From Novosphingobium sp. CECT 9465 (GTDB lineage: Bacteria > Pseudomonadota > Alphaproteobacteria > Sphingomonadales > Sphingomonadaceae): a stretch of 64,000 bases of DNA. This document shows positions 4,662 to 64,000 of this stretch, piece by piece. The notes under the pieces were generated by a model. It ran no database searches. It was not told the DNA's origin and saw only the letters and a program-made list of their open reading frames with translations. Location of the stretch: positions 1,412,501-1,476,500 of the forward strand of contig NZ_CAKLBX010000001.1 in the NCBI RefSeq assembly GCF_920987055.1, in the 5' to 3' direction. The position numbers and the translations under genes are program-made. Position 1 is the first letter of the stretch, and each line of letters begins with the position of its first letter.

Positions 4662-4891
4662 GCGCAGACAATGCCGCCAGTGCCCGATGATGAGCGCTTG
4701 CAACGCAAATGCAGCGGCGCTGAATCGGCCCGGTTTTTCAACCAGTCCATGGTGATGGACGAAATGGTGAAATTCTACCGTGCAGGACAAGCGCAACGTC
4801 TCGAAAATGCCCGTCGATGTTACGTGGTGATCGGGGTGCCGGTATCGTTTTTCGACAAAACGCCTTAATCAGCGCTACGTAATTGAGAGAA

Positions 4892-4936
4892 TGGTGGACG
4901 CACTTGGGCTCGAACCAAGGACCCGCTGATTAAGAG
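4892..4936 (-). other. attL: tRNA-Lys(CUU) 3' fragment: integration (att) site
   Basis: Read on the minus strand this is the last 45 nt of a tRNA. It begins at the anticodon loop (CTCTTAATCAGC, anticodon CTT), continues through the variable loop and T arm (CTTGGTTCGAGCCCAAG) and ends with the acceptor strand and CCA. The 5' half is absent: upstream of position 4936 the sequence turns into unrelated DNA. Tyrosine integrases of islands commonly cross over in exactly this part of a tRNA, so this is read as one att site, with an intact tRNA-Lys expected at the far end of the element, outside the window. Confidence 0.8.
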
Positions 4937-5018
4937 GACCTTTTCGGGCCTTTTCGGGAGTTTTCTGTTCTACGCCATAACTCTCTAAGTCATTGATATT
5001 GATAAGATGCTATCCGAA

Positions 5019-5040
5019 CAGCGTAACCTGTGTTACGCTG
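5019..5040. promoter_or_regulatory. Palindrome plus direct repeats upstream of integrase
   Basis: A 9-bp inverted repeat (CAGCGTAAC - 4 nt - GTTACGCTG) lies about 50 nt before the integrase start. It is followed by two copies of CGATTACG at 5057-5064 and 5067-5074. The arrangement suits binding of a regulator, excisionase or the integrase itself; which of these is inference. Confidence 0.5.
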
Positions 5041-5088
5041 CACTCGTCATTAAACCGATTACGTGGCGATTACGCAGGATTGATCTCA

Positions 5089-6435
5089 ATGGCTAATCAG
5101 CGGCTCACCAAAACGGCTGTCGACGCTATCCCGACACCGGTTGGCAAGGATTTCTTCGTTTGGGATACAGAGCTTCGTGGGTTCGGTGTTCGCACGACAC
5201 CCAGGGGCGTAAAATCGTTCGTCCTTCAATATCGCTTGAAGGGGAGACCCGCCAAGCGGATGACCATTGGGGGCTTCGGGAACCCCTGGACTGTCGAGAC
5301 AGCCCGGAAGGAAGCGGAGCGCCGCCTCATCAAAATCCGTCAGGGAATAGACCCACAGGCGGAGGCTCAAGAACAGGTCGAGCAGGAGCAACGCCAGAAG
5401 GAGCTGGAGGCAGAGCGCATTCGTGCCGAGGCGCAGGCCGCCCTCCTGACCGAGAAGTTCGCCTTCGCAAACTACGCCGATGTGTTTCGCGACCAGTATC
5501 TGAAGATTCATTGGGTCGACACCTGGAAGGATGCCGAAGGCGTTTTGAAAGCGGTCAAACCGCATTTCAACAAGGTGGTCCACGACATCACGCGGGCCGA
5601 TGTTGTAGAGGTCCTCGAGCGGTACAATGACCGGCCAGGAAGGAAGAAGGTTGTGCACTCGGTGTTGCGCAAGTTCTTCAACTGGTCTGTCGATCGTGGC
5701 GATCTGGACCGTTCGCCGATCGACCGGATGAAAGCGCCAAAACCTGTGCCGGCGCGGCGCCGTGTACTCGCCGCCGAGGAGATCATCGCGCTTTGGCAGG
5801 CAAGCGCTGACTTGGGCCCCCTGTGGCGTCCATATCTGCGGTTGCTGTTGTGCACGCTCGCCCGACGGGAAGAAGTGGCCAACATGGACTGGTCGGAGGT
5901 TGATTTGACAGGGGCGGTTTGGGAACTGCCTGAAGAGCGTGCCAAAAACAACCGGACACACCGCATTCCGCTCAATGCGCTCGCGCAGGCAGAGCTGCGG
6001 ACGTTGGCTGTAGCTGCCAAAGGCCTGGTGTTCACCACGACGGGAGAAACTGGCGTTTCGGGCTTTTCAAAGATGAAGAAGGCTCTCGACGAAAAGATGC
6101 TTCAGATCCTCAAGGATCGGGCCGAGAAGCGTGGCGACGATCCCGAGACGGTCATGCTCATGCCATGGAGAATCCACGACCTTCGCCGAACCGGGGCGAC
6201 CAATCTCCAGGCACTGGGGGTTCCGATCGAGGTAACCGAGGCAGTGCTCAATCACATCAGCGGAACGACCTCCGGAATCGCCGGCGTTTACAACCTCTAT
6301 CGTTATGAACCTGAAAAGCGGGTTGCTTTGGAAAAATGGTCCAAGCAGCTTTCGTTTCTGCTTCGGGATTCAGTAGGTCAATCTTCCAGAGATGAAATGC
6401 GCGAGGGGGAGCATCCGAAAAGTGCTCAAGCTTGA
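5089..6435 (+). CDS. int: P4-type tyrosine integrase of the element
   Basis: Site-specific recombinase that integrates and excises the element at tRNA-Lys. From ATG 5089 it has 448 residues: an N-terminal arm-binding domain (residues 1-90, DUF4102 type), a charged coiled linker (about 90-120), a core-binding SAM-like domain, and a catalytic domain. In that domain Arg (LARREEV, about 260), HDLRRT (about 362) and the nucleophile Tyr (GVYNLYRY, about 402) are all present. An upstream in-frame start at 4993 would add 32 residues running through the palindrome and is less likely. It lies beside the att fragment and reads into the element, as expected for an island integrase. Confidence 0.93.
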   Translation: MANQRLTKTAVDAIPTPVGKDFFVWDTELRGFGVRTTPRGVKSFVLQYRLKGRPAKRMTIGGFGNPWTVETARKEAERRLIKIRQGIDPQAEAQEQVEQEQRQKELEAERIRAEAQAALLTEKFAFANYADVFRDQYLKIHWVDTWKDAEGVLKAVKPHFNKVVHDITRADVVEVLERYNDRPGRKKVVHSVLRKFFNWSVDRGDLDRSPIDRMKAPKPVPARRRVLAAEEIIALWQASADLGPLWRPYLRLLLCTLARREEVANMDWSEVDLTGAVWELPEERAKNNRTHRIPLNALAQAELRTLAVAAKGLVFTTTGETGVSGFSKMKKALDEKMLQILKDRAEKRGDDPETVMLMPWRIHDLRRTGATNLQALGVPIEVTEAVLNHISGTTSGIAGVYNLYRYEPEKRVALEKWSKQLSFLLRDSVGQSSRDEMREGEHPKSAQA

Positions 6436-18159: not shown

Positions 18160-18180
18160 AAGACCTGCGTATGCTGTAAC

Positions 18181-18658: not shown

Positions 18659-18666
18659 GGCTTCAA

Positions 18667-19607: not shown

Positions 19608-19620
19608 AGCAGGAACGACA

Positions 19621-21032: not shown

Positions 21033-21048
21033 TGGAGTTCGTTTGAAT

Positions 21049-21804
21049 ATGTCCGAGTATCCTCGTCTGCGCGCGCTTGCCGATCCAGGCCTGCTTCCTG
21101 CACTCAAGCCCGAATATGCTCATCGCCGTCCTGCACTGGGCCTAGGCGAGCTCGATCCACCACCGCGCATATTGCTGCTTTACGGTTCTTTGCGCGAACG
21201 CTCCTATTCGCGTCTCGTCGTCGAGGAAGCCGCTCGGCTGCTGCAGTTTTTTGGCTGCGATACGCGGATATTCGATCCTTCCGATCTGCCCTTGCCGGAC
21301 CAGGTTGACGGCGACGATCACCCGGCCGTGCATGAGCTGCGCGAACATTCGTTGTGGTCGGAAGGCCAGGTCTGGTGCAGCCCGGAACGGCACGGCCAGA
21401 TCACCGGGATCATGAAGACGCAGATCGATCATCTGCCCCTGGCCTACAAGGGCTTGCGCCCCACCCAGGGCCGCACGCTCGCGGTGATGCAGGTCAGCGC
21501 CGGATCGCAAAGCTTCAACAGCGTTAACTCGTTGCGCATTCTTGGGCGCTGGATGCGGATGTTCACGATTCCCAACCAGTCTTCCGTGGCCAAGGCCTAT
21601 GAGGAGTTCGACGACGCGGGCCGGATGAAGCCGTCAAGCTACTACGATCGGATCGTGGACGTGGTCGAGGAACTGGTGCGCTTTACCGTCCTCCTGCGCC
21701 CCCATGCCGAGCAACTCGTGGACCGCTATTCCGAGCGGGTTGACGGGAACAAGCCGGTTCCGGCGGCGAGCGGCATCCTCGCCTCGATCGGCCCTGCCGC
21801 CTGA
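21049..21804 (+). CDS. arsH: ArsH NADPH-dependent FMN reductase
   Basis: 251 residues. The flavodoxin-like core has [13 protein letters not shown] (FMN phosphate loop) and [20 protein letters not shown], both strongly conserved in ArsH. It oxidises trivalent organoarsenicals to less toxic pentavalent forms using NADPH. ATG 21049 is used; an open extension to 21013 overlaps ynfA. It is the last gene of the rightward ars operon. Confidence 0.95.
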
Positions 21805-25770: not shown

Positions 25771-26514
25771 TCATTCATCGGCGGGCTCCACGGCGTCGAT
25801 ATAGAATGCTCCGCCTTTCCAGTCGCGCATGACGCCAGCTTCCTTGGCCTCCTCATATTTCGCCTTACAGAAGCAGCGAACCTCACCATCGACCTCGATC
25901 TTGACCGCAAGATCTTTTCCCTCCGGCTCGTCATCGCAAAGACCGATGACCCGGCGTTCCAGCGTGATCGCGCCGTCATCGATGCGGCTACCGCGGATGC
26001 AATGGAACGCTATGGGCGTAACTGGCGCGCGCCCATAGATTGCCGCCTCCGGATAGAAGCCGATCCTGACATCGGCGGTAGGGAGCCCCGCAGGCAGGTC
26101 GAACGATCTCGGAAGGATACGCCGAGCGGTGATCTTGCCCCACTCGCTTAGGTCACCGAACCGTTCGAAACCTTGGCGCTGCCAGAATGTCCACGAGTTT
26201 CGCGGCGAACATTCGATCGACAGGACATTCACATTGTCGTCCATCGCCCGCTTCATTGATGCCGCGAATAACGCATCCCCCAGCCCCTGCCTGCGGCAGT
26301 CCTTGCGGACGCTGACAATGTCAGGCGCATAGTCGCCTACCTGCACGGCCACGGCCTCATCATCGCGACGAATGACCCATAGGTCGCCATGTTCGAGTGC
26401 GCGTTCGATGATCCGCCGGTTGCACCAGAAGCCTTCGCCATCCTCCGCATATTCCCGCTCGAGCCAGGTGAGGACTGCGGCGAGATCGCCGGGCGTTGCC
26501 TTGACGATGTCCAT
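25771..26514 (-). CDS. GNAT-type acetyltransferase with C-terminal extension
   Basis: 247 residues. The first 120 residues have the GNAT fold with the acetyl-CoA loop DCRRQGLGDALF and the WTFWQRQGFERFG terminus. The remaining part, with a Cys pair (RCFCKAKYEEA), is not recognised. It starts 3 nt before the abiEii stop region on the same strand, so it is probably the third gene of the AbiE transcript or expressed with it. Substrate unknown. Confidence 0.75.
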   Translation of the reverse strand: MDIVKATPGDLAAVLTWLEREYAEDGEGFWCNRRIIERALEHGDLWVIRRDDEAVAVQVGDYAPDIVSVRKDCRRQGLGDALFAASMKRAMDDNVNVLSIECSPRNSWTFWQRQGFERFGDLSEWGKITARRILPRSFDLPAGLPTADVRIGFYPEAAIYGRAPVTPIAFHCIRGSRIDDGAITLERRVIGLCDDEPEGKDLAVKIEVDGEVRCFCKAKYEEAKEAGVMRDWKGGAFYIDAVEPADE

Positions 26515-26517
26515 GAA

Positions 26518-27429
26518 TCAACTCTCCCACGGGCCACCGGGACGCCAGCGCCCCTCAAAGGTCGCGCCGCGAGCCAGGGCTGCGGTTGGCGGCATCACCA
26601 AACGCTCGATCTGCGCCTGAACATCCGGAAACGGCTCCGGCGCGAGCGCAATCTCGGTGCGCCTTAGAAAAGCGGCCCACTGGCCCTGCCTCTCGTCAGC
26701 ATAGGCGGTGGTCAGTGCCGCGGGGATTTTCTCCGGGATTTTCGTCTGGCGCCGCTCGAACGTCGCGGCGATCGCGCGCGCCAGCACGGTGCCGTCGAAT
26801 TCGAAGGTATTGGCGATGGCCCAGAGGTCATAGAAGTCCTTCAGGCGGGTGTTGATCATATCGAGCGCTACCATCGCCTGGAATTTCTCCGCAACGACCG
26901 TTTCGGGCGGATAGGCGCGCAGCTCGGCCATCGGCTGATCGAGCATAGACGGATAGCGGATGTCGACAGGCGCTGGCGTAACGGCATCGCCATAGCCGAT
27001 GTCGACGTGCATTGGCAGCCGTGCGCCCGCGAGCTCCGCCAGAAAGTCGATGCGGACACCCGCATATTCATCCTCCGCCCGCGCGGCAGCGGCCTTGAGC
27101 GTGTCCGGCCGGAATATGATCCCATCATCATCCACCTCAACGGCGAGGATTTCCTGAAATATGGAGGCCAGCGTGTCGGGTGTATTCTCGCCAGCGCCAA
27201 GCAGATCGAGATCGCCGGTCGCGCGATATGGCGCGTCGGCCCACAAACTGAAAAGCATCGCCCCCTTCAGGATGAAACGGTCCCGATATGATGAACGGCT
27301 CAGCCGATAGAGCAGTCGCTCGATGACATAGCGTGTCATCAGCAGCTGTGCGTTTTCCCGTCGGCTTCGCGCCCGCGCTACGAGCCGGTCGCGGACCGAG
27401 ATCGCAACATTCTTCGGTGTTGGCCTCAC
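26518..27429 (-). CDS. abiEii: AbiEii-family nucleotidyltransferase toxin
   Basis: 303 residues from GTG 27429, which overlaps the abiEi stop by 4 nt. The nucleotidyltransferase core is visible (ILKGAMLFSLW, then GDLDLLG about 20 residues later, and VDIGYGD). The C-terminal motif VVAEKFQAMV...RLKDFYDLW is characteristic of AbiEii/AbiGii proteins. AbiEii toxins modify tRNA acceptor ends and cause abortive infection. The frame remains open far upstream inside abiEi, but that extension is not coding. Confidence 0.92.
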   Translation of the reverse strand: MRPTPKNVAISVRDRLVARARSRRENAQLLMTRYVIERLLYRLSRSSYRDRFILKGAMLFSLWADAPYRATGDLDLLGAGENTPDTLASIFQEILAVEVDDDGIIFRPDTLKAAAARAEDEYAGVRIDFLAELAGARLPMHVDIGYGDAVTPAPVDIRYPSMLDQPMAELRAYPPETVVAEKFQAMVALDMINTRLKDFYDLWAIANTFEFDGTVLARAIAATFERRQTKIPEKIPAALTTAYADERQGQWAAFLRRTEIALAPEPFPDVQAQIERLVMPPTAALARGATFEGRWRPGGPWES

Positions 27430-28034
27430 ACCATCGCCTCGAGATAAGGCCGCATCACCGATTGAACGCGATCCAGCTGCGCGTAGCGGTAGATCTGATT
27501 GAGATCGCGGTTGGAGCGGGTCTTCATGAAGTCGCGCAGCGCCTCGACCGCAACATCGATGCCGATCTTGTTCCGATGCTTGAAGCAGTCGGCGACCGTC
27601 TTTGCCGGGTCGGTGATCGGAACCGGCACCCCGTCGATCATATGGGTCTCGACACCGGCCGTGAGCGCTTCGCCGCTTGCGCGCACGATCTTGAGCGCGA
27701 CCGATGCGTTCACCGGCGCCCAATCTTTCTGTCCCAGCATCATCCAGACCATGTGCGGCGTCTGCGTGGTCAGCTCGTGATATTGCAGTGCCGACAGAAG
27801 GCAGATCACGCCTTTCGGCTGGATCCGCGCCGCTTCCGCCAGACTGGTGCTGCTTTCGACCGATGCATCCGCAAGTTTGTAGAGTCCGCGCCCGATCTGC
27901 TGCAGAATACCCTGGTCGCGCAGCCGCTTCACCGTTGCCCGCGTGACACCGGCCGCATCGAAGTCGCGGCCCCGTGCGATGCCGCACTGACGTGCGACCT
28001 CAAGGGCCCGATCGCGGTGACTCGCAGCTTCCAT
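27426..28034 (-). CDS. abiEi: AbiEi antitoxin/repressor
   Basis: 202 residues from ATG 28034. An N-terminal winged HTH (GVTRATVKRLRDQGILQQIGRGLYKL) is followed by the AbiEi C-terminal domain (PKGVICLLSALQYHELTTQ..., ITDPAKTVADCFKHRNKIG). AbiEi represses its own promoter and counters AbiEii (type IV toxin-antitoxin). A TTG at 28076 in frame lies inside the operator, so ATG 28034 is preferred. Confidence 0.92.
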   Translation of the reverse strand: MEAASHRDRALEVARQCGIARGRDFDAAGVTRATVKRLRDQGILQQIGRGLYKLADASVESSTSLAEAARIQPKGVICLLSALQYHELTTQTPHMVWMMLGQKDWAPVNASVALKIVRASGEALTAGVETHMIDGVPVPITDPAKTVADCFKHRNKIGIDVAVEALRDFMKTRSNRDLNQIYRYAQLDRVQSVMRPYLEAMV

Positions 28035-28046
28035 AAGCGATGATAT

Positions 28047-28082
28047 AATTCCTTGGTGTTTATGCGCAATGACCAAGGAATT
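28047..28082. promoter_or_regulatory. Inverted-repeat operator of abiE
   Basis: Perfect 11-bp inverted repeat AATTCCTTGGT (28047-28057) / ACCAAGGAATT (28072-28082) with a 14-nt spacer, directly upstream of abiEi. AbiEi of other systems binds paired inverted repeats and bends the promoter, so this is a good candidate site. It also faces the divergent operon starting at 28119 and could control both. Confidence 0.7.
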
Positions 28083-28118
28083 GTATCGCGGCTAAGAGTG
28101 CCATAACATCGCTGTCCT

Positions 28119-28928
28119 ATGACAGACTCAGCTTCTTTCTCGGAACGCCATGGCTATCACAGCGCCGATGTTGAAATCACCACCCGTGAGGACGCCCCGG
28201 AGGACGTTCGAGCCGCCATCATGATGCTGGGCTATGCCGCCGGCATGGGACCAGGCGGTATGCGCGATGCGGTCTGCGAGGTGCTGCTCAAGCGGCCCGA
28301 TCCCAACAACTGGTCGGCGGGCAATATCGAGACCGAGGTCCATCGGCTGATCGACGACGCGCCTTGGTACAAGGTGTACGACATTGCCGAGCGCATCCAC
28401 GCCGAGATTGCCCGCGAAGATTACACCGGTACCAAGCAAGCCGAATATGCGCGCCGCCTGACCCAGTTCTTTCGGGAACACGGCGTCGGCTGGCAGATGG
28501 AAGAGGGACGCATCGTCTTCCGCGGTTCGGAAGCCTTCACCCTGGCGACCCGCGATGCTGTCGCCACCATGCAGCAGGCCGGAAGCCCGACTGCGGCGAA
28601 CGAGGTGCACGAAGCGCTCAAGGACATCTCGCGTCGTCCCTCGGCCGACGTCACCGGCGCGATCCAACATGCGATGGCGGCGCTGGAATGCGTCGCGCGG
28701 GAAGTCGACGGCAGCACCGATACCCTTGGGCAGATCATCAAGCGCCTTACGATCCCGCAGCCGCTCGATGGCGCGCTCCACCGCCTCTGGGGGTTCGCAT
28801 CCGAGCAGGGCCGTCACATCCAAGAAGGGCGCGAGCCCGGCTTCGAAGAGGCGGAGCTGGTTGTCACCGTCGCCTCCGCCGTCAGCGTCTACTTGTTGCG
28901 GCACGCAGCGCGGGCAGAATCGCGATGA
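28119..28928 (+). CDS. AbiJ N-terminal-domain-4/Abi C-terminal-like protein
   Basis: 269 residues. The N-terminus SFSERHGY followed by a charged helix matches the AbiJ-NTD4 opening. The C-terminal 100 residues (GAIQHAMAALECVAREV...TLGQIIKRL...LWGFASEQGRHIQEG...EEAELVV) match the Abi_C type helical domain that ends many abortive-infection proteins. First gene of a rightward four-gene operon, divergent from abiE; its stop overlaps the next start (ATGA). Confidence 0.8.
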   Translation: MTDSASFSERHGYHSADVEITTREDAPEDVRAAIMMLGYAAGMGPGGMRDAVCEVLLKRPDPNNWSAGNIETEVHRLIDDAPWYKVYDIAERIHAEIAREDYTGTKQAEYARRLTQFFREHGVGWQMEEGRIVFRGSEAFTLATRDAVATMQQAGSPTAANEVHEALKDISRRPSADVTGAIQHAMAALECVAREVDGSTDTLGQIIKRLTIPQPLDGALHRLWGFASEQGRHIQEGREPGFEEAELVVTVASAVSVYLLRHAARAESR

Positions 28929-31600: not shown

Positions 31601-33469
31601 GTGTGGGCTGACAATGAGACGACCCGCGATTTCCTGAACTTCTCCGGTGTCGCAGACACGGTAGCAGAAATCATCGTGCAGGCGCGCGGACGTCCGATTT
31701 CCATCGGTGTCTCCGGCGCTTGGGGCGTCGGTAAGTCTTCGATGATAAAATTGACCGAAGCATCGCTTTCAGCTCGCGAACACCAAGATGGCGAACGTGA
31801 GTTTGTCTTCGTCGAGTTCAATGCATGGCTCTATCAGGGTTATGACGACGCACGAGCGGCCTTAATGGACGTCATTGCCAGCAAGCTTGAGGAAGAAGCA
31901 AAGAAGCGCGAAACCGGAATCGACAAAGCCAAGGACCTGCTCAAGCGCGTCAAATGGCTACGCGCGGCGAAACTCGTCGGTGGTTCGGCGGCTGCCCTTG
32001 CTTTTGGATTGCCACCGATCGGCTTGGTTGGCGAGGTATGGTCGATTGCCGAGCGGGCATTTACCGGTCGCGCTGACCAGAAACTGATCGGGGACGCGCA
32101 GAAGACCGCAGGGGAAGCCGCCAAGGCGGCGGGAGGATTGCTGGGTGATAAGGCGGACACATCCCCACCCAAGGAAATTCAGGCGCTACGCGCCGCGTTC
32201 GAAGATACACTCGAGGAACTTGGCGTAACCTTGGTCGTATTGATCGACGATCTTGATCGTTGCCTTCCAGAAACGACCATCTCAACCCTAGAAGCGATCC
32301 GCCTCTTCCTCTTTTTGAAGAACACGGCCTTCGTGATCGCTGCTGATACGGACATGATCAAATTCGCAGTGCGCAAACACTTCGAGGGCGTAAGCGACGA
32401 TCTCCTCGCTACCAATTATTTCGACAAGCTGATCCAGGTACCTATCCGGGTCCCGGCGCTGGGGACGCAAGAAGTACGCGCCTATATGATGCTGCTTTTC
32501 GTCGAGAACAGCGAGCTGTCCGAAGAGGTCAAAGAGGCAATTCGGGCGGGAGTCTGCGGCCAGCTTCGCCAAACGTGGCAAGGTAAACGCGTTGATCGTG
32601 CTTTCGTCCAATCCCTTCATGACCAGTTCCCAGATGACCTTGTAGGCAAGCTTGACACTGCCGATCGGCTCGCACCGCTGATGACCGGTGCCACAGGAAT
32701 TTCCGGCAACCCGCGGCTCATCAAACGGTTTCTGAACGCGCTTGCGATTCGCATGACAATCTCCAAGGCGCAGGGGGTTGGCGTCGACGAGGCAGTCTTG
32801 GCGAAGCTCCTGTTGTTCGAGCGCCTGGGTGACCCCAAAGCCTATGGCGAGCTGATCGCAGCGGTCAGCGCCAGCGAATCTGGCAAGCCCTCTTTCATGG
32901 CCGAATGGGAAACAAAGGCAGTCGCGGGAGCGGACCTCAAGCTCGAGGCACCCTGGGCAGATCCATTCGTTCTGGAATGGCTTACCTTGCCGCCGGCGCT
33001 TTCCGACCTGGATCTGCGCGGCGCACTCTACGTCGGACGCGAACATGCACCACTCATCACGCCCGAGGATCGACTGTCGTCGGAGGCTGCCGAACTGCTG
33101 ACCGCTTTGCTCGAACATCCGGATATGGCAGCTTCGCTAAAGGACCGGCTGGTCAGAATGGCGCGCGCTGAAACCACTGTCATGATGGACCGCCTTCTCG
33201 ATCGTGCACGCCAGGAACAGGATTGGGGGGTCCCACCGATTCTGGAGGCCTGCCTCGCCTTGGCCGATGCCGATCCAGTCCAAAGTGCCCGGTTGGCGGC
33301 TTTCCTGCGAGAAAGGCCTGCCGCCCAGATCCAGCCAAATATTGTGCCCAAACTTGCAGACCAGCCTTGGGCGAAAGGGGTCTTCCAGGCGTGGGAGTCA
33401 GGCGATGTTAGTCGCCCGGTGAAGAACGCAATCAAGAAGCGGGGGAATGATGGGAACATCTCAGTCTAG
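31601..33469 (+). CDS. qatA: QatA: KAP-family P-loop NTPase
   Basis: 622 residues. Walker A GAWGVGKSS near residue 40, Walker B LVVLIDDLDRC near residue 212, and a hydrophobic stretch between them (AKLVGGSAAALAFGLPPIGLV) as in KAP NTPases that carry membrane insertions. GTG 31601 has GGAG 6 nt upstream. With the QatB-type gene behind it, this is the ATPase of the Qat antiphage system (QatA-B-C-D). The C-terminal half is helical and unassigned. Confidence 0.88.
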   Translation: MWADNETTRDFLNFSGVADTVAEIIVQARGRPISIGVSGAWGVGKSSMIKLTEASLSAREHQDGEREFVFVEFNAWLYQGYDDARAALMDVIASKLEEEAKKRETGIDKAKDLLKRVKWLRAAKLVGGSAAALAFGLPPIGLVGEVWSIAERAFTGRADQKLIGDAQKTAGEAAKAAGGLLGDKADTSPPKEIQALRAAFEDTLEELGVTLVVLIDDLDRCLPETTISTLEAIRLFLFLKNTAFVIAADTDMIKFAVRKHFEGVSDDLLATNYFDKLIQVPIRVPALGTQEVRAYMMLLFVENSELSEEVKEAIRAGVCGQLRQTWQGKRVDRAFVQSLHDQFPDDLVGKLDTADRLAPLMTGATGISGNPRLIKRFLNALAIRMTISKAQGVGVDEAVLAKLLLFERLGDPKAYGELIAAVSASESGKPSFMAEWETKAVAGADLKLEAPWADPFVLEWLTLPPALSDLDLRGALYVGREHAPLITPEDRLSSEAAELLTALLEHPDMAASLKDRLVRMARAETTVMMDRLLDRARQEQDWGVPPILEACLALADADPVQSARLAAFLRERPAAQIQPNIVPKLADQPWAKGVFQAWESGDVSRPVKNAIKKRGNDGNISV

Positions 33470-34574: not shown

Positions 34575-37500
34575 TTAGGCGGCGAGCTTGCGGTGTTGCA
34601 AGCGCCGATGTTCGATGGTCTGTCGCTTGATCCTTTCGCGCTGTTTGATGATGGCTGGAGCCCTGCCGAAGTAGGCATCGGCGGGCGTCACGTTGTTCAG
34701 GCTCTCGTGGTAACGCTGGTGGTTGTAGTACTCGACGAAGGCCTCGATTTGGGCTTCGAGGTCGCCGGGCAAAAAGTAGTTTTCCAGCAGGATGCGGTTT
34801 TTCAGGGTTTGGTGCCAGCGCTCGATCTTGCCCTGGGTTTGCGGGTGCATCGGGGCACCGCGCACGTGGCTCATCTTCCGGGCCTCAATGTATTCAGCCA
34901 ATTCGCCGGCGATGTAGCTGGGGCCATTATCCGACAACAGCCTGGGCTTGTGCAGCACCGTGGCGCTGTCGCAGCCCGATGCGCCAAGGGCCAGGTCGAG
35001 CGTGTCGGTCACATCCTCGGCGCGCATGTTGGTGCACAGTTTCCAGGCGATAATGTAGCGCGAGAAGTCGTCGAGCACGGTCGACAGGTACATCCAGCCC
35101 CACCCGATGATCTTGAGTGGAGTAGGAAGCGCATAAGCGCTTCCCCTCCCCGAACCGTACGTGCACCTTTCAGCGCATACGGCTCTCTATTCAACCTTGG
35201 TCCAAGGCCATGGCGACATCACGATAGCGGGAGGTGACGGTGTTTCGGAGCTCGTCCCGATAGATGTAGGGATTTCGCTCCGGATTCCGCCACCGGAACT
35301 GCATCTTCTGGCTTGTGACCAGTCGTCGCAGCGCCTTGCCGACGGCATTGCCCTGATTGCTTCGACCGTAGACCAGCCACGTCTTCGATTGGCCGGTTTC
35401 CGGCATGCGGTACCATTTACGCATCAAAGGCTTGATACGGGACCGGTACTTCTGCGCCAACCAGTGCGCCATTTTCCAGAACACGACGGTGTCGATGCGC
35501 CGGAATGTGCGCGCCGTGAAGTCGGTGAACCTGTAGAACGCAGCCCATCCCGCCAGCTGGCGGTTCAGACCGTCGATCATGTCCACCGCGGCAACCTCAT
35601 GATTGCCGGAGAGAGCCTCGACCAATCGGCGAGCGAAGGTCTTGGCCTTCTCCTTGGGTATCGTTGAGACCACGGACATGCGTCCGCTCGATCCCCGCCT
35701 GCGGATAATCCGGTGCCCGAGGAACACGAACCCGTCGTCGACGTGGGTGATATGGCTCTTGTCCATATTCAACGTCAGCTTCAGGTCGTCTTCCAGAAAG
35801 GCCCGGCATTCCTCGCGGATGGCCTCGGCATGTGCCTTGGTGCCCTTGACGATGACAACGAAGTCATCGGCGTAACGGCAGTAGGCGACAGCAGGTTTCC
35901 ATTGCCGGTTCTCGCGAACCGTGATGGGGCGCCCCTGCTGGATGCCGAAGTTCCATGCCCAGCGATCCTTTCGCGCCTTGTCGCTCAGGTATTTCGCCTC
36001 CAGCCACGCATCAAACTCATGGAGCATGATGTTGGACAGGAGCGGCGACAGCACGCCGCCTTGCGGTACACCTTCGCTTGAGGCGACGAACAGGCCACGG
36101 TCGACGTGGCCCGCCTTCAGGAATCGCCAGAGCAGATCAACAAACCGATCATCCCGGATTCGCCGCCGAACGCAGCGAAGCAGAAGCCGGTGGTGGACCG
36201 TATCGAAGTAGCTCGCCAGATCACCTTCGATGATCCAGCGGCCCCGCGCTCCGGCACCACTATCCTGCAACTGTATCTTCACGGTCCGGACAGCGTGATG
36301 CACGCTGCGTTCCGGCCTGAAGCCGTAGGAGAGGCGATGGAAGTCGCTTTCCCAGATCGGCTCCATGGCCATCAGCATCGCGCGCTGGACGATGCGGTCT
36401 TTCAGGGTCGGGATACCAAGTGGTCGTTTCTTGCCATTGGCTTTCGGGATATAGATTCGCCTGACCGGCTGCGGGTGATAACTCCCCGTCAGCAAGTCCG
36501 TTCGCAGACTGGCCAGCTGTTCTGCCAGTACGGCCTGCATCCGTCGCTTGTCCATTCCGTCGATGCCCGGCGTATTGGCGCCACTCGACGCCAGCACGAT
36601 CCGAGCCGCCTCGGCAAGCCACGCCCGATCGGCAATGAGCCGGAGAAGGCGATCGAACTTGCGGTTCTGGTCGCTCTCGGCCCACGTCGCGAGCTTGTGC
36701 TGCATTTCGCTGATTATCAAAGGTCTTCACCTCGTTTGGTCAGGTAGTTTGCACTTCAAGCTGATTGAACTGTCCCCCTTCGCCATGTGACAGGCTTTCC
36801 CTGTCGCGGACTACTACGGGGACTCCGCCAGCACGGTGGACATCGGGGCCAACTCCCTTGGCATTCCATCATGCCTTCCCTCGTTCATATGCTGGACTTT
36901 CGCGCGCTGGGGAGGCTGCCGGTCGCAGTCCTTGTCCTTGCGTCCCGCAAGTCGATGCCGATGCCATGGCCTGGCTGCATTCTCTCCATGGCTCCATGCG
37001 GACGGGCTACATTTCCGGCCACATTCGGATGTCGCCGACATACGTCTCCGGCGCCATCATCAGCATTCCGCCTGTTAAGCCGTGTAGGCGAAGGCGACAT
37101 TTCAGCCCTCGGATGCGGATTAACCGGTTCGTGTTCCTCAACCTTCCAGCGCTACAGCCTCGGGGACCATCTCGGCGTAACGGCTTCGCCTCAATCCCCT
37201 TTACCTGCGGGCTACGTCACCCTGCCAGTTGACGGCAGGTCACCGCCGCTTGGGCTCATGCCCCCTCACAGCAGAGGGCAAGGCATTCGTTCAGTTCCTC
37301 CTTTCTCCTTTGCATTCCAGTCATATGCACCCCGGACCATCCGGGACGAGGCGCACAGTAGGTAAAATCAGTCTGCCACATCTCGTTTACCCGCGTGGTC
37401 TTGGTGTGGAACTGATCGGCGGCCTTGATCACGACATAGGCCGGGCTGGTGATCAGATCGTGGGCCTTCAACAGACGGTAAACCGTGGCTTCCGACACGA

Positions 37501-58194: not shown

Positions 58195-58644
58195 GATGGG
58201 CTGGGGGTACTGTCCTCCCCAAGCTGTGGATCGCGGTTCTTGCCGCGGTGGTGCGCGTGGGGGAGTTTCTGCGAGGAGCTGAGCTCAGCTGGTTGAAAGA
58301 CCTGGGAAGGGCGTGAGTTTTTCTTAACCGCGATCGCCCTGTGACCGCTGCTGCCGATCTTGAGACGTAGTCGTCCTTCGGATCGGCCGGCGCCTCCGGC
58401 CTCGTCTCGATGCGCTTCCTATCGGCCAGGCGCGCTTTCAGCGCTCGCCCGCCGCCGCAACGGCGGTGCGCCCACTTTCTTCCCCGCGCCGTGTCGGCGC
58501 TCCTCGCGCACCAAGAAAGTGGGAGCTCTGCCGTCCTCCGCTTGATGCTGCGGGCCTGACGGCTGCGGCACCGGGCGCTGTCCGACCAATCAGGCGCATC
58601 GAGGCCGGAAGGTGCCGGCCCGACCAGATGGAAAGGACTTCAAC
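58195..58644. other. 450-nt spacer with inverted repeat
   Basis: No gene supported. It contains inverted repeat CCCACTTTCTT (58471-58481) / AAGAAAGTGGG (58513-58523) with a 31-nt GC-rich loop, similar in design to the repeat at 53246-53322. The last 20 nt carry a GAAAGGA ribosome site for the following gene. Confidence 0.55.
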
Positions 58645-58959
58645 ATGGCAAAGATCGGCAGCTTCAAGAAGGTCTCAGGCGAACTGCGAGGACAGATCAT
58701 GACACTCGGCCTCCAGGCCAAATCGATCCGCATCGTCGCTGACGACGCCGCATCGGGAAACGCCCCCACCCACAGGGTTCACCTTGGCGACATCGAGATT
58801 GGTGCAGCTTGGCAAAAGCACACCAATGACAACCGCCCCTATCTTTCGGTCAAGCTCGATGACCCCAGCTTCATCGCCCCGATTTTCGCCCAGCTCTTCG
58901 AAGGCGACGAAGGCGAATTCGACCTGGTGTGGAACCGGCAGTCCCGCCGCGGCGACTGA
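58645..58959 (+). CDS. DUF736 protein (copy 2)
   Basis: 104 residues: MAKIGSFKKVSGELRGQIMTL, then HRVHLGDIEIGAAWQK and RPYLSVKLDDPSFIAPIFAQL, the canonical DUF736 layout. ATG 58645 with GGAAAGGA 10 nt upstream. It precedes the transfer-control cassette. Function unknown. Confidence 0.92.
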   Translation: MAKIGSFKKVSGELRGQIMTLGLQAKSIRIVADDAASGNAPTHRVHLGDIEIGAAWQKHTNDNRPYLSVKLDDPSFIAPIFAQLFEGDEGEFDLVWNRQSRRGD

Positions 58960-59054
58960 TCGAACCGCTCATCCACCGCCTGGGCGCGCACCGGGCGGTG
59001 GAATCCCTACTATACTAGGTGGAGCTATGCTAAGGACAGGCCGACGACACCCCG

Positions 59055-59267
59055 ATGACGCTTCGGGGTATCGTTGCCGGGAATTTGCGCAAATTGCGAT
59101 TGGCCAAAGGGCTGTCGCAAGAGGAAGTCGCGCATCTTGCCGGTCTCGACCGCAACTATGTGGGCAACCTGGAGCGTGAGCAGAATTCGCCAACAGTCGA
59201 TACTCTTGAGCGTATTGCCGAGGTGCTTGGCGTCGCAGCGGTCGAGTTCTTTCGCGAATCGCGCTGA
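59055..59267 (+). CDS. qseC: XRE-family regulator, QseC-like
   Basis: 70 residues that are almost only an HTH_3 domain (LRKLRLAKGLSQEEVAHLAGLDRNYVGNLEREQNSPTVDTL). In the ICEMlSymR7A family the equivalent QseC represses the antiactivator gene qseM and itself. Position directly before a small DUF2285 gene supports this. Upstream, CTATACTAGG and CTATGCTAAG (59010-59034, 15-nt period) may be its operator or -10 sequence. The symbol is by analogy. Confidence 0.8.
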   Translation: MTLRGIVAGNLRKLRLAKGLSQEEVAHLAGLDRNYVGNLEREQNSPTVDTLERIAEVLGVAAVEFFRESR

Positions 59268-59459
59268 CCTAGCACAACCGCTGCGGCACAAGTCGGGCTG
59301 CGCACCTGGCTCGGCAGACACTTTCCACCGATCGGGTCCCACGCTCCGTGTGATTCTGCGCCCAAATGGCAGTATATCGGTCAGGGGACTCATGTGTGGG
59401 CCGGGGGGAGCACGCGGATTTCAGACTGACCTTGTGCAGCGCGAACGGGAGCTGCGCGC

Positions 59460-59786
59460 ATGACGAATACACGATTTGAGGATGCAGCGCCGATGGGCAA
59501 CGAACTTATGCCCTACGACCTTGCTCATCTCGAGACCTATCTGCGTCTGCTCGATGCCGCAGGCGATGCGACTGCTTCCTGGGAAGAAGTGGTCGCAGTC
59601 CTGTTCGGTCTCGACGCAGCCCTGGAGCCTGAACGGGCCCGGCGTGTCCATGACAGCCATCTAGCGCGCGCGCGGTGGATGTCGTCCGAGGGATACCGGC
59701 AACTGGCCGCTCTGCAGCAGTCACCCCCCAGAACTGCAATGAAAGCGAAAGGTCCCGCTGACCGAAATCCTGTCGGTCGAGAGTAA
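59460..59786 (+). CDS. qseM: Single-domain DUF2285 protein, QseM-like antiactivator
   Basis: 108 residues. YDLAHLETYLRLLDAAGDATASWEEVVAVLFGLD...RARRVHDSHLARARWMSSEGYRQL has the DUF2285 fold seen also at the C-terminus of the next gene. In ICEMlSymR7A the single-domain protein QseM binds and blocks FseA (and TraR). Its position between an XRE gene and the fseA-like frames matches. No traR/traI is seen in this window, so the quorum-sensing input is not shown. Confidence 0.78.
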   Translation: MTNTRFEDAAPMGNELMPYDLAHLETYLRLLDAAGDATASWEEVVAVLFGLDAALEPERARRVHDSHLARARWMSSEGYRQLAALQQSPPRTAMKAKGPADRNPVGRE

Positions 59787-59851
59787 CTCGAAGCCCCCGG
59801 ATTTGTCGGATAGTTCCAGCAGCCTTCAAAAGATCAGGTGAGGGGAGGCTT

Positions 59852-60626
59852 ATGTCGCCAGTTTCGGACTGGCGCGAGGAAAATCCTTCGCGCCCTCGGG
59901 ATGCGTTTGACCTCAGCGGAATTGCCTTCGAGTTCCTGCGAAGGAACCCTGATTATCAACGCGACTTCGCACTGGCCCAGGGCAATCCTGGAGTATCTCA
60001 AACAGAGGAGGACGCCCGCACCGCTTCGCGGTGGGGGCTGCGATTTCCTGGCCGACCCGGCCCATCCTGTTTCGGACGGACAGCAGCTCTGGCGGGCTGA
60101 CGTTCTGCAGTTCACCATCCTGGTCGGCCCTCCGCCCAACGGGTTCGAACACCATGATGCGATCATTGCCGACCGCCTTGGCAACATTGTCAGCCGCGAG
60201 GAGGGGGCCGACGGACTGCACGTGACCATCGGGCGCGGCTTGGGGCGTGCGCACTTGCGGTTCGAGCCGACGGTCGATGCCTGGGGCTGTGTCATGCTGG
60301 CCCCCGAGCAGGGGCTGCGCGTGCGGTTGAACGCCGCAAGCTGGTTTCTGCGCAGTCTCAGGGGAGAAACCACGCCTTCCCCGGAAGCTGAATATCTGTC
60401 GGACCGCCGCCGCACGCGTCTTCTCCTCCTCCTCAACCTTTTCGATGCCCGGCGCGCAGGCGCTTCCCTGCGCCAACTGGGCGCGCGCTTTATCGACCGC
60501 GACATCGCCAGCTTTTCTGCCGCAGCCTGGTCCGATGCCTCCGAACGCAAGCAGCTGCGTCGCCTCCTCGCCACAGCCGACCAACTGGTCACCTGCGCCT
60601 ACCGCCGCTTGCTGCGCGGCGAGTAG
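59852..60626 (+). CDS. fseA: FseA-like excision activator, +1 frameshifted DUF6499-DUF2285
   Basis: The first frame (59852-60100) encodes the DUF6499-type N-terminus (SDWREE...AFEFLRRNPDYQRDF...ASRWGLRF). The DUF2285 part continues in the +1 frame to 60626 (FLADPAHPVSDGQQLWRADVL...LLLLNLFDARRAGASLRQLGARFI). The frames meet at CGA-TTT-CCT-GG: slipping tRNA-Phe from UUU to UUC gives RF-LADP and a 257-residue protein. This is the mechanism reported for FseA of ICEMlSymR7A, which activates the excisionase gene rdfS. A sequencing indel would look identical, but conservation of the slip motif argues for programmed frameshifting. Confidence 0.85.
60041..60050 (+). promoter_or_regulatory. Predicted +1 ribosomal frameshift site
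   Basis: CGATTTCCTG: zero-frame Phe codon UUU (60044-60046) can re-pair one base downstream on UUC (60045-60047), after which CTG (60048-60050) starts the DUF2285 frame. The zero frame otherwise ends at 60100. Confidence 0.75.
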
Positions 60627-60654
60627 GGACATTCGCGCGAATTTTGTCTGTCCC
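60626..60654. promoter_or_regulatory. Nested palindrome upstream of rdfS-like gene
   Basis: Perfect 12-bp palindrome ATTCGCGCGAAT (60631-60642), flanked by GGGACA (60626-60631) and TGTCCC (60649-60654). It sits at the end of the fseA frame and about 90 nt before the excisionase-like gene; a candidate site for FseA or an autoregulator. Inference only. Confidence 0.4.
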
Positions 60655-60740
60655 TCCACGGGCGGCGTCCGGCCCGTCAAGCCTGTCCTCTCCATCGCTG
60701 GGGCGCGCCGACGCCCCCGGCACTGACCAGGAGGACGCCC

Positions 60741-61040
60741 GTGACCGAACCGCAATCATCTCCGCCGCCCCGTTATCTCGCGCAGCCCGACCCGGACGCG
60801 GTCGTGCGGCCGCGCTATCTGCGCACGCCCGAAGCGGCGACATTGCTAGGCCTCTCGCCGCGCACGCTTGAAAAGCACCGCTGTTACGGGACTGGGCCTG
60901 TCTATCGCCAGCTTGGCGGACGTATCGTTTATGCCATTCCCGACCTGGAGGCCTGGGCTTCGCTCGGGACCCGTAGGTCTACCTCCGATCCCGGTGAAGG
61001 AACCGTCCATCCCGCCAAGCGGCTAGCGCCGGGCGTCTGA
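60741..61040 (+). CDS. rdfS: HTH excisionase-like protein, RdfS-like
   Basis: 99 residues. The central AlpA/MerR-like HTH (LRTPEAATLLGLSPRTLEKHRCYGTGPVYRQLGGRIVYAIPDLEAW) is typical of recombination directionality factors. Following the fseA-like gene, it matches the rdfS position, the excisionase whose transcription FseA drives. GTG start. It would work with the integrase at 5089 across the element. Confidence 0.82.
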   Translation: MTEPQSSPPPRYLAQPDPDAVVRPRYLRTPEAATLLGLSPRTLEKHRCYGTGPVYRQLGGRIVYAIPDLEAWASLGTRRSTSDPGEGTVHPAKRLAPGV

Positions 61041-61043
61041 GCC

Positions 61044-61928
61044 ATGCCCGCCCGTGCAATCCAACGCTCCGCCGAGGGCGCCCAACTCGAACTCTTTCGC
61101 TCGATACCAGGTGACCTGTCGCCGCGCGATGCCCAGGATCTTATGTCCTGGCCGTTCTTCAGCCTCGCCAAGCGAAAGCGCGTCACGCCCATCGATTTCA
61201 GCATGGGCGAGACCCGGATCTCGGTCGAGGCCGTGCCCGAGCATGGCATGGCGACCATCTGGGACGCTGACGTGTTGATCTGGGCGGCCAGCCAGATCGT
61301 CGAGGCCAGGGATGCAGGGCGTCCGACCTCGCGGCTCATGGCAACCACGCCCCATGAAATCCTTGCCTTCACCAGCCGGGGAACAGGGCGAGATCACTAT
61401 GACCGGCTGAAGGCTGCGCTTGACCGGCTTCAGTCGACAACCGTGGCCACGTCCATCCGGCAGGAACACCAGCGGCGGCGGCATCGCTTCTCCTGGATCA
61501 ACGAATGGCGTGAACTGACCGACGAGCGCGGCCGCGCGGCCGGGATCGAGCTCATCCTGCCCGACTGGTTCTATGCCGGCGTCGTCAACCGTTCCCTCGT
61601 TCTCACGATCGACCGCGCCTATTTCCAGCTGACCGGCGGTCTCGAGCGCTGGCTTTACCGTCTCGTGCGCAAGCATGGCGGACACCAGGCCGGCGGCTGG
61701 AGCTTCGATTTCGCCCACCTCCATCTCAAATCCGGAGCGCTCTCGCCGCTCAAGCAGTTCGCATTCGATGTCCGGTCGATCGTTCACCGGCAGGCGCTCC
61801 CCGGATACCGGCTCGCCATCGAACATGCCTTCGGCCGTGAGCGACTGCTCTTCGTTGCCGAGCCCGTCGACCCGTTTGACCGGGCCATGCGGCGGCTTAA
61901 GCTCAAGCCTGTGGATAAGCTGCCATGA
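61044..61928 (+). CDS. repA: Replication initiator protein A (RepA, RPA family)
   Basis: 294 residues. PFFSLAKRKRVTPIDFSMG, IWDADVLIWAASQIVEA, LILPDWFYAGVVN and LTGGLERWLYRLVRKHGG are the RPA-family landmarks: two winged helices of plasmid initiators. Starts 3 nt after the rdfS-like stop. An initiator in an ICE suggests that the excised circle can replicate. Iteron-like repeats follow directly. Confidence 0.9.
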   Translation: MPARAIQRSAEGAQLELFRSIPGDLSPRDAQDLMSWPFFSLAKRKRVTPIDFSMGETRISVEAVPEHGMATIWDADVLIWAASQIVEARDAGRPTSRLMATTPHEILAFTSRGTGRDHYDRLKAALDRLQSTTVATSIRQEHQRRRHRFSWINEWRELTDERGRAAGIELILPDWFYAGVVNRSLVLTIDRAYFQLTGGLERWLYRLVRKHGGHQAGGWSFDFAHLHLKSGALSPLKQFAFDVRSIVHRQALPGYRLAIEHAFGRERLLFVAEPVDPFDRAMRRLKLKPVDKLP

Positions 61929-61931
61929 CGT

Positions 61932-61997
61932 TCGGCCTATTGGAAACCGCAAGGCTCGGCCCATCGGAAACCGCCGCTTCGGCCTATTGGAAACCGC
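61932..61997 (+). repeat. Three iteron-like direct repeats after repA (candidate oriV)
   Basis: TCGGCCTATTGGAAACCGC occurs at 61932-61950, with two changes at 61956-61974, and again at 61979-61997, with a period of 23-24 nt. They begin 4 nt after the repA stop. Spacing near two helical turns suits RepA binding. The AT-richer DNA after them (61998-62060) could be the melting region. No parA gene follows, unlike many related loci. Confidence 0.75.
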
Positions 61998-62190
61998 CGT
62001 CGCTGCTAAGCGTAAGAAGTTTAAACAGAAATTTGCGCTCTACTAACCGTGCTAACAAAAGAGTCCTTCGGACTCTTGCTAACGGGGTCTTCCAGCCTGC
62101 CCGGCACAGCCGGCCAAGGCTACTTTTGCGGTGCATGGCTCAGACATTGGCTGCGCGGTCTGGCGCTCCAATTTGCTGCGGAGCGCATCC

Positions 62191-62703
62191 ATGAACCACG
62201 GGGACCACAACGCATCCGGCACTCAGCGGCTGCGCCCGGACCGGGCACTGACCGAGGTCGAACTGGTCTGGATTGAAAAGCGGATCGAACATTGGGTCCG
62301 CTTCGGCCGCATCGCCAGCGAACGCATCCTCAGTCGGCGCAGCCGTGTCGTGGGGTTTCGTGAGGGGGCGTGCATTGGCTTCGTGCAATGGTCGGCGAGT
62401 GACTATGGCACGGTCCGCTCACGCATCGACATCCTGCGCTGCGTCGGTCGCGCGGAGGCCTACACCACGGTGCCCTTTGTGCGACCGGGCGGTGAATTGC
62501 TTCTCTCGATCAAGGGCTGGCCGCGGGTACAGCGCGTGCTTCAGGCGATCGATGCGGTGGAGGCCGCAGGCGTGGATGCGTGCGATGTCGCACCCGACCA
62601 TTGGCGCCACGTCCACAACCGGTTGACCGCGGGCGACGCGCCGCGTGCCTACACGCCCGAACGCCACGAGGCATGGCTCAAGCGCAAGGCGGCCGGGCTA
62701 TGA
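62191..62703 (+). CDS. DUF2840 protein
   Basis: 170 residues. LTEVELVWIEKRIEHWVRFGRI, RVVGFREGACIGFVQW and TTVPFVRPGGELLLSIKGWPRVQRVL are the DUF2840 landmarks. It is always found beside traF in this ICE type; function unknown. Its stop overlaps traF by 4 nt (ATGA). Confidence 0.88.
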   Translation: MNHGDHNASGTQRLRPDRALTEVELVWIEKRIEHWVRFGRIASERILSRRSRVVGFREGACIGFVQWSASDYGTVRSRIDILRCVGRAEAYTTVPFVRPGGELLLSIKGWPRVQRVLQAIDAVEAAGVDACDVAPDHWRHVHNRLTAGDAPRAYTPERHEAWLKRKAAGL

Positions 62704-63284
62704 CACCGCGTTCGCGACGTCGAACGGCATGGATCGGCGGCCTTGCCTGCCTCTCGCTTGTCACGGGTCTGGCGTTGCCGCGGCCACGTCCATTGATCGT
62801 GTGGAACGCCGGCGCAAGCGCACCTGTCGGAGCTTATCGGGTGCTGTACGATGGTCCAGTCACGGTTGGCGACTATGTCGCCATCGTACCGCCCGCACCG
62901 CTGGCTGCATTCATGGCTGAGCGCCACTATCTGCCGCTCGGGCTCCCACTGATCAAGCGCGTGGCGGCGCAGAGTGGTGCGGTGATCTGCCGACATGAGG
63001 CTGCCGTGTCGATCAATGGCAAGCCCGTCGCCCAGGCCGCCGAGCGCGATCATTTGGGGCGGGCATTGCCCGTCTGGTCTGGGTGCCGCGCGCTGCGCCC
63101 TGGCGAGCTGTTCGTCATCAATGGGCCGCAGGACAGCTTCGACAGCCGCTATTTTGGGCCGCTTGGCGCCACGCAGCTGCTGGGCAAGGCCGTGCCACTC
63201 GTGACCCGCGATGCACCGACGGCGCCGCTTGCATGGCGCCGGTTTTCCACCCGCAGGTCTGCCCAACCGCTACCAGAAGGATGA
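62700..63284 (+). CDS. traF: TraF conjugation-specific S26 signal peptidase
   Basis: 194 residues. N-terminal membrane anchor (WIGGLACLSLVTGLAL), catalytic Ser in NAGASAPVGAYRV, Lys in GLPLIKRVAAQSG, and the family end SFDSRYFGPLGATQLLGKA. Processes and cyclises the pilin in type IV-like conjugation. Coupled to DUF2840. Confidence 0.92.
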   Translation: MTPRSRRRTAWIGGLACLSLVTGLALPRPRPLIVWNAGASAPVGAYRVLYDGPVTVGDYVAIVPPAPLAAFMAERHYLPLGLPLIKRVAAQSGAVICRHEAAVSINGKPVAQAAERDHLGRALPVWSGCRALRPGELFVINGPQDSFDSRYFGPLGATQLLGKAVPLVTRDAPTAPLAWRRFSTRRSAQPLPEG

Positions 63285-63289
63285 TTCTC

Positions 63290-63646
63290 ATGCAGATTGG
63301 ATGCTTTGTCAGGACAAAAACCGGCTTTGTTGGGCGGATCCGAACGATCAGCCTCGATGTGCAGGTGCGACTTGTTCCTACCGGTGCTGAGCCCGGAGGC
63401 ACCGCTCCGGACTGGCAGGTCTATGGCGTCGAACCCGCTGATGCTGACACCGCGCTCTGGAGCGTTGGCGCCGCCTGGACACACGCACGCAAGGACGGGG
63501 GATCCTACCTTGCCGTGGCGATCGACTGCCCGACCTTTGCGCGACCATTGCGCGCCCATCTCGTGCCGTCAGCAGACAAAGCAGATCAGCACCTGCTCTA
63601 CCGGGCACCCTCGCGCGCGCGCCGGACAGAGGGGCCGGAGCGTTGA
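63290..63646 (+). CDS. DUF736 protein (copy 3)
   Basis: 118 residues: MQIGCFVRTKTGFVGRIRTI and GGSYLAVAIDCPTFARPLRAHL are the DUF736 pattern, with a longer middle loop. ATG 63290, or 63281 three codons earlier. It is overlapped at its end by the next gene (TTGA). Confidence 0.88.
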   Translation: MQIGCFVRTKTGFVGRIRTISLDVQVRLVPTGAEPGGTAPDWQVYGVEPADADTALWSVGAAWTHARKDGGSYLAVAIDCPTFARPLRAHLVPSADKADQHLLYRAPSRARRTEGPER

Positions 63647-64000
63647 GCGGCGAACATGCAAGGCAGCAGGCAATCGCGCATCATGCTGTTGCCTGTCGTT
63701 CCCTCATCGTGCTTGTGGCCGTCCTGGGCGCGATCGGTGGTCCACCGTTGGGCATGTCGTTGGCGCTCGCACGCCCCGCAGCTGGTCTTTCAGCGGACAG
63801 TAATTTTGCGCCGCATGTGGAAACGGCAGCTCGCCGCTTCGGTATTCCCGAAGCGTGGATCTGGGGCGTGATGCGAACCGAGAGTGCCGGCAATTCGCGC
63901 GCTGTCTCGGTAAAGGGGGCAATGGGGCTCATGCAGCTCATGCCTGCCACCTGGAGCGGGCTGACGGCACGATATGGCCTTGGCAGCGATCCATTCGACA
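63643..64000 (+). CDS. Lytic transglycosylase (VirB1/TraH type), cut by window end
   Basis: 119 residues visible. TTG start overlaps the DUF736 stop. A membrane or signal segment (SLIVLVAVLGAIGGPPLGMSLALA) is followed by an SLT domain: FGIPEAWIWGVMRTESAGNSRAVS with catalytic Glu and GAMGLMQLMPATW. It opens holes in peptidoglycan for the conjugation machine. The frame continues past base 64000. Confidence 0.85.
   Translation, partial: MSGEHARQQAIAHHAVACRSLIVLVAVLGAIGGPPLGMSLALARPAAGLSADSNFAPHVETAARRFGIPEAWIWGVMRTESAGNSRAVSVKGAMGLMQLMPATWSGLTARYGLGSDPFD

Follow-up and report, generated by a model that had tools for sequence, protein, structure and literature searches.

In the genome of Novosphingobium sp. 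CECT 9465, a gene resembling fseA, which belongs to an excision system of integrative and conjugative elements (ICEs) already described in rhizobia, is divided between two overlapping reading frames. The locus thus raises the question of whether this gene has been broken by an error or a mutation, or whether it is a genuine fseA whose product is made by a +1 step of the ribosome. The window analyzed, meaning the whole stretch of 64,000 nucleotides, is G000:C1:1412501-1476500 of a 4.39-Mb genome. The evidence from sequence comparison points to a genuine FseA relative over a sequencing error. Very probably, the locus is an excision switch of the FseA type that belongs to a 109.6-kb ICE integrated in a tRNA-Lys gene, with full-length FseA produced by +1 slippage at a low rate; without a forward slip of the ribosome by one base at a fixed position, the activator could apparently not be made. 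Comparison establishes the family membership, the split frames, the selected slip site and the element borders; slippage and its rate, binding of QseM to FseA in this bacterium, promoter activation and excision are what these results suggest.

Similar to FseA, the first frame encodes a DUF6499 domain, with AFEFLRRN for an AWEFLRRN-like motif, and the second frame, whose open reading frame is listed as 59838-60626, ends in a basic DUF2285 domain (Table 1). The claim of the earlier note that the two halves lay in different frames and met at CGA TTT C held, and the relation between them was +1. The junction reads TGG GGG CTG CGA TTT C, after which CTG GCC GAC continues in the new frame, so that the site stands beside W-G-L coded on TGGGGG. 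By these comparisons, the gene is a member of the FseA family with the conserved +1 slip site. The extended motif TGGGGNYTNNNNTTTY occurred once in the 64 kb (0.07 expected; 7 of 100 shuffles contained one), and its sole copy sits exactly where two halves of one protein family join. Moreover, RovC (PDB 6xz5) was matched across nearly the whole product, with 23% identity over 195 aligned residues, and also by profile search, although RovC, unlike FseA, regulates another regulon according to its entry title. Because this fold spans the joint, it argues against the halves being separate proteins that arise by independent initiation and need no fusion. The open C-terminal frame reaches back to 59838 or further, and a plasmid record of Novosphingobium sp. 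PP1Y annotates the halves as separate genes, both of which would suit separate proteins. However, the one-frame relatives make one protein and the synonymous codon bias at the slip site, described below, would be left without a cause, and this explanation is very improbable.

Within the order, 72 of 296 genomes contained PF20109, as did 25 of 385 drawn from the class and 43 of 398 drawn from the phylum; these draws overlap and each contains the genome of the window. The loci compared are part of the listed matches. Profiles of both halves were searched against 190 loci, including the copy in the window (L002) and another copy in the same genome (L001). Removal of 6 duplicates gave 187 distinct DUF6499 places, of which 11 without a C-terminal half in reach were dropped. 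Among the remaining 176 loci, the halves were related by +1 in 128 (the window included), shared one frame in 47 and were related by +2 in 1. In 126 of the 128 +1 loci, the overlap contained TTT with C or T as the next base. This TTT stood four codons past a Trp in 116 loci and five codons past it in 8, and in 2 the Trp was unaligned. In a smaller first set of 80 distinct split rows, 79 of which had the Trp motif, TTT was present in 77 and TTC in 0. In the alignment of the slip site that the earlier note called for, the +1 relation recurred, and so did TTT at a matching position. One of the two exceptions, L131, has CGA TTT CCC at the place and a later stop in the C-terminal frame; the other, L109, is taken up below. 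The +2 case, L134, has TTT CGC at the place and a further break downstream.

Homologues in one frame without the motif had been named as what would point to an error or a mutation. One-frame homologues exist, as the 47 of 176 loci show. However, they mostly carry other codons, TTT followed by C or T being found at the homologous place in 4 of 34 alignable genes, and they were clustered on the tree (14 label changes vs. 37.8 with shuffled labels), while the nearest relatives, at most 39% identical to the copy in the window, retain CGA TTT. On a FastTree tree of 169 rows, the split or one-frame state changed at least 14 times, 5 of these changes being forced by well supported branches. Therefore, as judged from the tree, the frameshift was probably gained or lost repeatedly.

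The one-frame genes also served for comparison of codon choice, for which we used the 116 split rows in which Trp stands four codons ahead of TTT and those 34 of the 47 one-frame genes that have W-G-x, the other 13 being dropped. The Gly codon was GGG in 73 of 114 split rows (background 286/2013) and in 8 of 34 one-frame rows (background 93/681; split vs. one-frame, Fisher p 6e-5). Where Arg directly preceded TTT, it was coded by CGA in 38 of 43 split rows (background 327/3547) and in 0 of 11 one-frame rows (Fisher p 5e-8); in one subset of the loci, the Arg codons were CGA in 17, CGC in 4 and CGT in 1. As the rows are related, the evidence is weaker than these raw counts suggest. When the C-terminal halves were grouped by single-linkage clustering, CGA was found in 28 of 31 clusters with Arg at 60% identity and in 15 of 17 at 50%, compared with 0/4 and 0/3 one-frame clusters, respectively. 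The corresponding values for GGG were 50.4/86 and 28.4/49. At 40% identity, clustering chained nearly all rows into 3 split clusters, and the codon test is uninformative there. On the FastTree tree, the CGA state changed at least 8 times. In addition, predicted pairing with the anti-Shine-Dalgarno (anti-SD) sequence averaged -7.84 in split genes vs. -5.60 for random synonymous choices (z -16.7), and -5.98 vs. -5.63 in one-frame genes (z -1.5). TTG or TTA at the Leu codon was raised in split genes (57/106), with no significant difference from one-frame genes (9/26; Fisher p 0.12). In the second copy of the same genome, L001 (G000:C1:2896988), the conserved Gly is replaced by Arg AGG, and W-R-L is coded TGGAGGTTG, which is close to a perfect Shine-Dalgarno (SD) sequence and has stronger predicted anti-SD pairing (-10.5).

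These results bear on the reading that the split is a sequencing error or that fseA was recently inactivated by a frameshift mutation. The 47 one-frame loci and the further breaks in L131 and L134 would be in line with it. However, the same +1 relation and TTT recur at the same place in relatives no more than 39% identical, the synonymous bias is limited to split genes, strong domain scores are kept in both halves and the same genome has a second split copy, which together render an error or a mutation extremely improbable.

tRNA-Phe reads both UUU and UUC, so a step of the P-site tRNA from UUU to UUC retains full pairing, and CGA is decoded by inosine-A pairing, a weak pair. At the junction, most ribosomes on the DUF6499 frame would end at the stop starting at 60098. 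With internal pairing of UGGGGG to the 16S anti-SD sequence and a weak CGA in the E site, peptidyl-tRNA-Phe would re-pair from UUU to UUC at a low rate, and the +1 step would give full-length FseA. FseA would in turn switch on rdfS and the transfer genes behind it, and RdfS would turn the integrase towards excision. The acidic QseM, encoded directly upstream, would bind the DUF6499 part and hold FseA inactive.

Similar steps have been described elsewhere. According to the available part of PMC3498833, P-site UUU re-pairs to UUC at the UCC_UUU_CGU site of PA-X, where the E-site codon also has an effect, and further UUU_C sites, limited in the codons of their E and A sites, were foreseen as a class. 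The weak pairing of CGA fits the E-site effect cited there. Different from the FseA sites, the PA-X site is used by eukaryotic ribosomes and thus presumably works without anti-SD pairing. Like prfB, which encodes release factor 2, the site in the window has an internal SD-like purine run, a pyrimidine slip codon and a predicted step in the +1 direction. In prfB, the slip codon lies 3 nt past the SD-like run and a stop occupies the A site (PMC12421855, in the part available), whereas UUU_C, a spacing of 6 nt and the sense A-site codon CCT are found here. Because of this spacing and the sense codon, it is not a prfB-type site. A spacing of 3 nt would result if CGA were in the P site and one base of the A-site UUU were skipped, with an identical R-F-L peptide, and the strong CGA bias among Arg codons would also agree with this. 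However, TTT is nearly invariant and the codon before it varies (CGA, CAC, TCC, TGC, AGC, GTC and others); as re-pairing by +1 is presumably impossible for most of these, slippage on that codon in the P site is less likely. The same reasoning is in print for UCC_UUU_CGU in the available part of PMC3498833. A step with CGA in the P site is therefore unlikely, and slippage on UUU is preferred.

Several results weigh against this slippage or against the wider regulatory reading. L109 is split with CGG TGT C in place of TTT. Conversely, the one-frame genes L019, L024, and L043 keep TTT CAC in frame, so that TTT alone does not force a split. The SD spacing differs from that of prfB. No downstream RNA structure was detected as a stimulator (z 0.42), and a scan of 58950-60800 found no sigma-70-like promoter. 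QseC is named by gene position, its HTH_3 domain being generic. Over 76 split loci, no spacing of perfect inverted hexamers stood out cleanly for an FseA box (spacings of 16, 17, and 18 in 10, 11, and 12 loci; 7, 11, and 13 in 16, 13, and 12). Finally, Foldseek used by itself found nothing in the PDB at E <= 0.001. Searching with the C-terminal half as a single sequence brought up no PDB chain at E <= 0.01, and an Rfam scan of 58600-61100 gave nothing at gathering score.

The genes that the earlier note assigned to the cassette were present where it placed them and had Pfam support, which for the first gene was the generic HTH_3 (Table 1). All are on the plus strand, in the order DUF736, HTH_3, lone DUF2285, split DUF6499/DUF2285, HTH_17, RepA, DUF2840, traF and transglycosylase. 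The solved structures of QseM and RdfS were matched by the respective products; the match of PF10074 to QseM was weak (E 7.6e-4, under the family cut-off). An imperfect inverted repeat, ACGACACCCCGA/TCGGGGTATCGT (59044-59074), spans the qseC start codon and may be an operator. The GGGACA-N17-TGTCCC directly after fseA resembles the published FseA box, in which, in the part of the source available, two inverted hexamers are 15-16 bp apart, and is a candidate for it; in L020 and L026, GGACAT-N16-ATGTCC occupies this place.

Table 1. Features of the excision cassette and of the left border of the element (window coordinates).
Feature	Position	Strand	Evidence or remark
attL, 46-bp exact repeat, 3' part of tRNA-Lys(CTT)	4891..4936	.	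twin G000:C1:1526958-1527003
Tyrosine integrase adjoining attL	4993..6435	+	PF13356 + PF00589
DUF736 gene	58612-58959	+	
qseC-like HTH_3 repressor, 70 aa	59055..59267	+	PF01381 E 4e-17, generic family
qseM-like antiactivator, 108 aa, lone DUF2285	59460..59786	+	solved QseM 7uqt E 2e-15; core isoelectric point (pI) 4.95
fseA first frame, DUF6499 half	59852..60100	+	PF20109 E 5.4e-18; AFEFLRRN motif
Shine-Dalgarno-like TGGGGG, codons W-G	60032..60037	+	6 nt ahead of slip codon; predicted -8.4 kcal/mol with anti-SD
Putative slip site CGA TTT C	60041..60047	+	E-site CGA; P-site UUU would re-pair to UUC
Second frame of fseA (+1), with middle domain and DUF2285	60048..60626	+	PF10074 E 6.9e-18; last 105 aa pI 11.4
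Zero-frame stop of fseA first frame	60098-60100	+	
Candidate FseA box GGGACA-N17-TGTCCC	60626..60654	+	or GGACAT-N15-CTGTCC, 5 of 6
rdfS-like excision factor, HTH_17, GTG start	60741..61040	+	solved RdfS 8dgl E 1.7e-8; PF12728 E 2.2e-7
RepA-type initiator after rdfS	61044..61928	+	PF10134 E 1e-89
DUF2840 gene	62131..62703	+	PF11000 E 1.7e-70
traF signal peptidase	62580..63284	+	PF10502 E 5.5e-21; TIGR02771 E 3e-22, below its cut-off

Across the loci, 55 of 65 QseM-like stretches beside split genes had a pI below 6, and 163 of 166 C-terminal stretches of FseA had a pI above 8. A qseM-like gene lay directly upstream in 63 of 126 split and 8 of 46 one-frame loci, and fseA was followed by an rdfS-like gene at no more than 500 nt in 76 of 129 split loci and 27 of 47 one-frame loci. 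A coupling of the split frame to the upstream qseM-like gene was not accepted, as supported branches gave 5 independent pairs. A role of the slip site as a second FseA-binding site was not supported: the longest string that the slip site shares with the gene's own promoter averaged 5.82 (74 loci) vs. a permuted mean of 5.69, the largest of 200 permutations being 5.95. CGATTT itself, the string of the slip site, was found upstream of rdfS, in the promoter, in 8 of the 26 loci whose slip site has CGA and in 4 of 48 others, where shuffles expect 0.015 per promoter.

The circuit has been described for rhizobia in a 2025 paper on RdfS, a 2018 paper on tripartite ICEs (PMC5882170) and a 2021 survey of Mesorhizobium ICEs, and a 2016 review mentions the FseA frameshift, as far as the parts of these sources available go. 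Within the same limit, a 2023 Nucleic Acids Research (NAR) paper (PMC10359603) gives 4709 FseA homologues, ~61% of which need a +1 step, with UGGGGG next to WGL; it reports "+1 PRF" (programmed ribosomal frameshifting), and its available part does not name the slip codon. As far as the sources go, the locus shares with ICEMlSymR7A of Mesorhizobium japonicum R7A a two-frame DUF6499-DUF2285 activator with a +1 site beside W-G-L on TGGGGG, an acidic QseM of a lone DUF2285, RdfS, traF and relaxase genes downstream, and an ICE with an integrase and trb genes. The gene order is different, contrary to the earlier note. According to the legend in PMC5882170, the order in R7A is traR, then traI2-msi172-msi171 and qseM-qseC, and qseC and qseM were divergent in the inferred ancestor; according to the text, traF and msi107 share an operon with rdfS. 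Here, qseC-qseM-fseA-rdfS are on one strand, and repA and DUF2840 stand between rdfS and traF. Also different from ICEMlSymR7A, no LuxR-type autoinducer-binding domain (PF03472) was found in this genome, the control being positive in E. coli; for the TraI autoinducer synthase (PF00765) the genome also gave 0, but its control was positive nowhere. TraR, a LuxR-type receptor and an upstream part of the R7A gate, seems to be missing, and QseM is probably left with FseA as its only target. If the gate works without quorum sensing, excision may be restrained mainly by slippage and QseM. With slightly more doubt than confidence, we propose both this and that FseA sites form a bacterial +1 class of their own, with UUU_C, an SD-like run placed 6 nt before it, a sense A-site codon and a selected weak E-site codon, mostly CGA where it codes for Arg.

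The element is bordered by attL and its twin, at a distance of 109,567 bp from repeat to repeat; the twin forms the 3' portion of an intact tRNA-Lys(CTT) gene. It contains, in addition to the integrase, a DUF3363 relaxase, a type IV secretion system coupling protein and TrbE-, TrbL-, VirB8-, CagX- and TrbI-type mating-pair genes. By its borders and genes, the element is classed as an ICE. It also bears arsenic-type (ArsP_1, LMWPc, SBF, FMN_red) and defence-type (AbiEii, QatA and SoFic models) genes, as had been suggested. The arsenic-type cluster (window 15489-21804) encodes a pyridine-nucleotide oxidoreductase, an ArsP_1 permease, an LMWPc-type reductase, an SBF transporter and an FMN reductase. 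A Fic protein (14176-15390) matched the SoFic defence model (E 1.9e-70), and a KAP NTPase (31601-33469) matched the QatA model from end to end (E 1.6e-145) and is perhaps part of a Qat defence system. At 25771-28928, genes for an AbiEii-type nucleotidyltransferase, a GNAT protein and an AbiJ_NTD4/PDC-S32 protein adjoin each other, and a group II intron maturase (RVT_1 + GIIM) is encoded on the minus strand at 35191-36720. Between the coupling-protein and trb genes lies ~27 kb of cargo (G000:C1:1482966-1510605; sensor kinase, LuxR-type response regulator, EAL protein and proteases), including a short integrase-type gene at 1486652-1487275.

A second related element near 2.90 Mb (G000:C1:2886001-2905000; L102, L001) has the same one-strand order of DUF736, HTH, QseM and FseA, and also a relaxase and TrbI. 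Beyond this genome, the two best plasmid matches of window positions 58600-64000 were to Novosphingobium sp. PP1Y and Sphingopyxis indica, and Rhizobium was the commonest genus among the 418 matching records; the matched plasmid genes are annotated in part as DUF6499. Plasmid Lpl of PP1Y (NC_015579, L210) has DUF736, DUF6499, DUF2285 (annotated apart), HTH, repA, DUF2840, traF, DUF736, transglycosylase and DUF3363 relaxase genes on one strand, with the joint TGG GGC CTG AGC TTT T. Unlike this locus, it is on a plasmid and has no qseC or qseM annotated between DUF736 and DUF6499.

What is new here is this family member, the codon-level evidence and the constraint to CGA at the E-site codon. The literature search returned no paper on FseA in sphingomonads, nor one that links DUF2285 to sphingomonad integrative and conjugative elements. 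No mention of the E-site codon was found in the available parts of the papers on FseA, and no priority is claimed. In the split genes, codon choice gives evidence that a bacterial +1 site is under selection, their one-frame relatives serving as a natural control, and E-site CGA emerges as a testable stimulator. Annotation may divide such genes into two fragments, as happened in PP1Y, and they are easily overlooked. Finally, our results suggest that a gate consisting of a two-frame FseA and an antiactivator controls an ICE outside the rhizobia, apparently without LuxR-type input.
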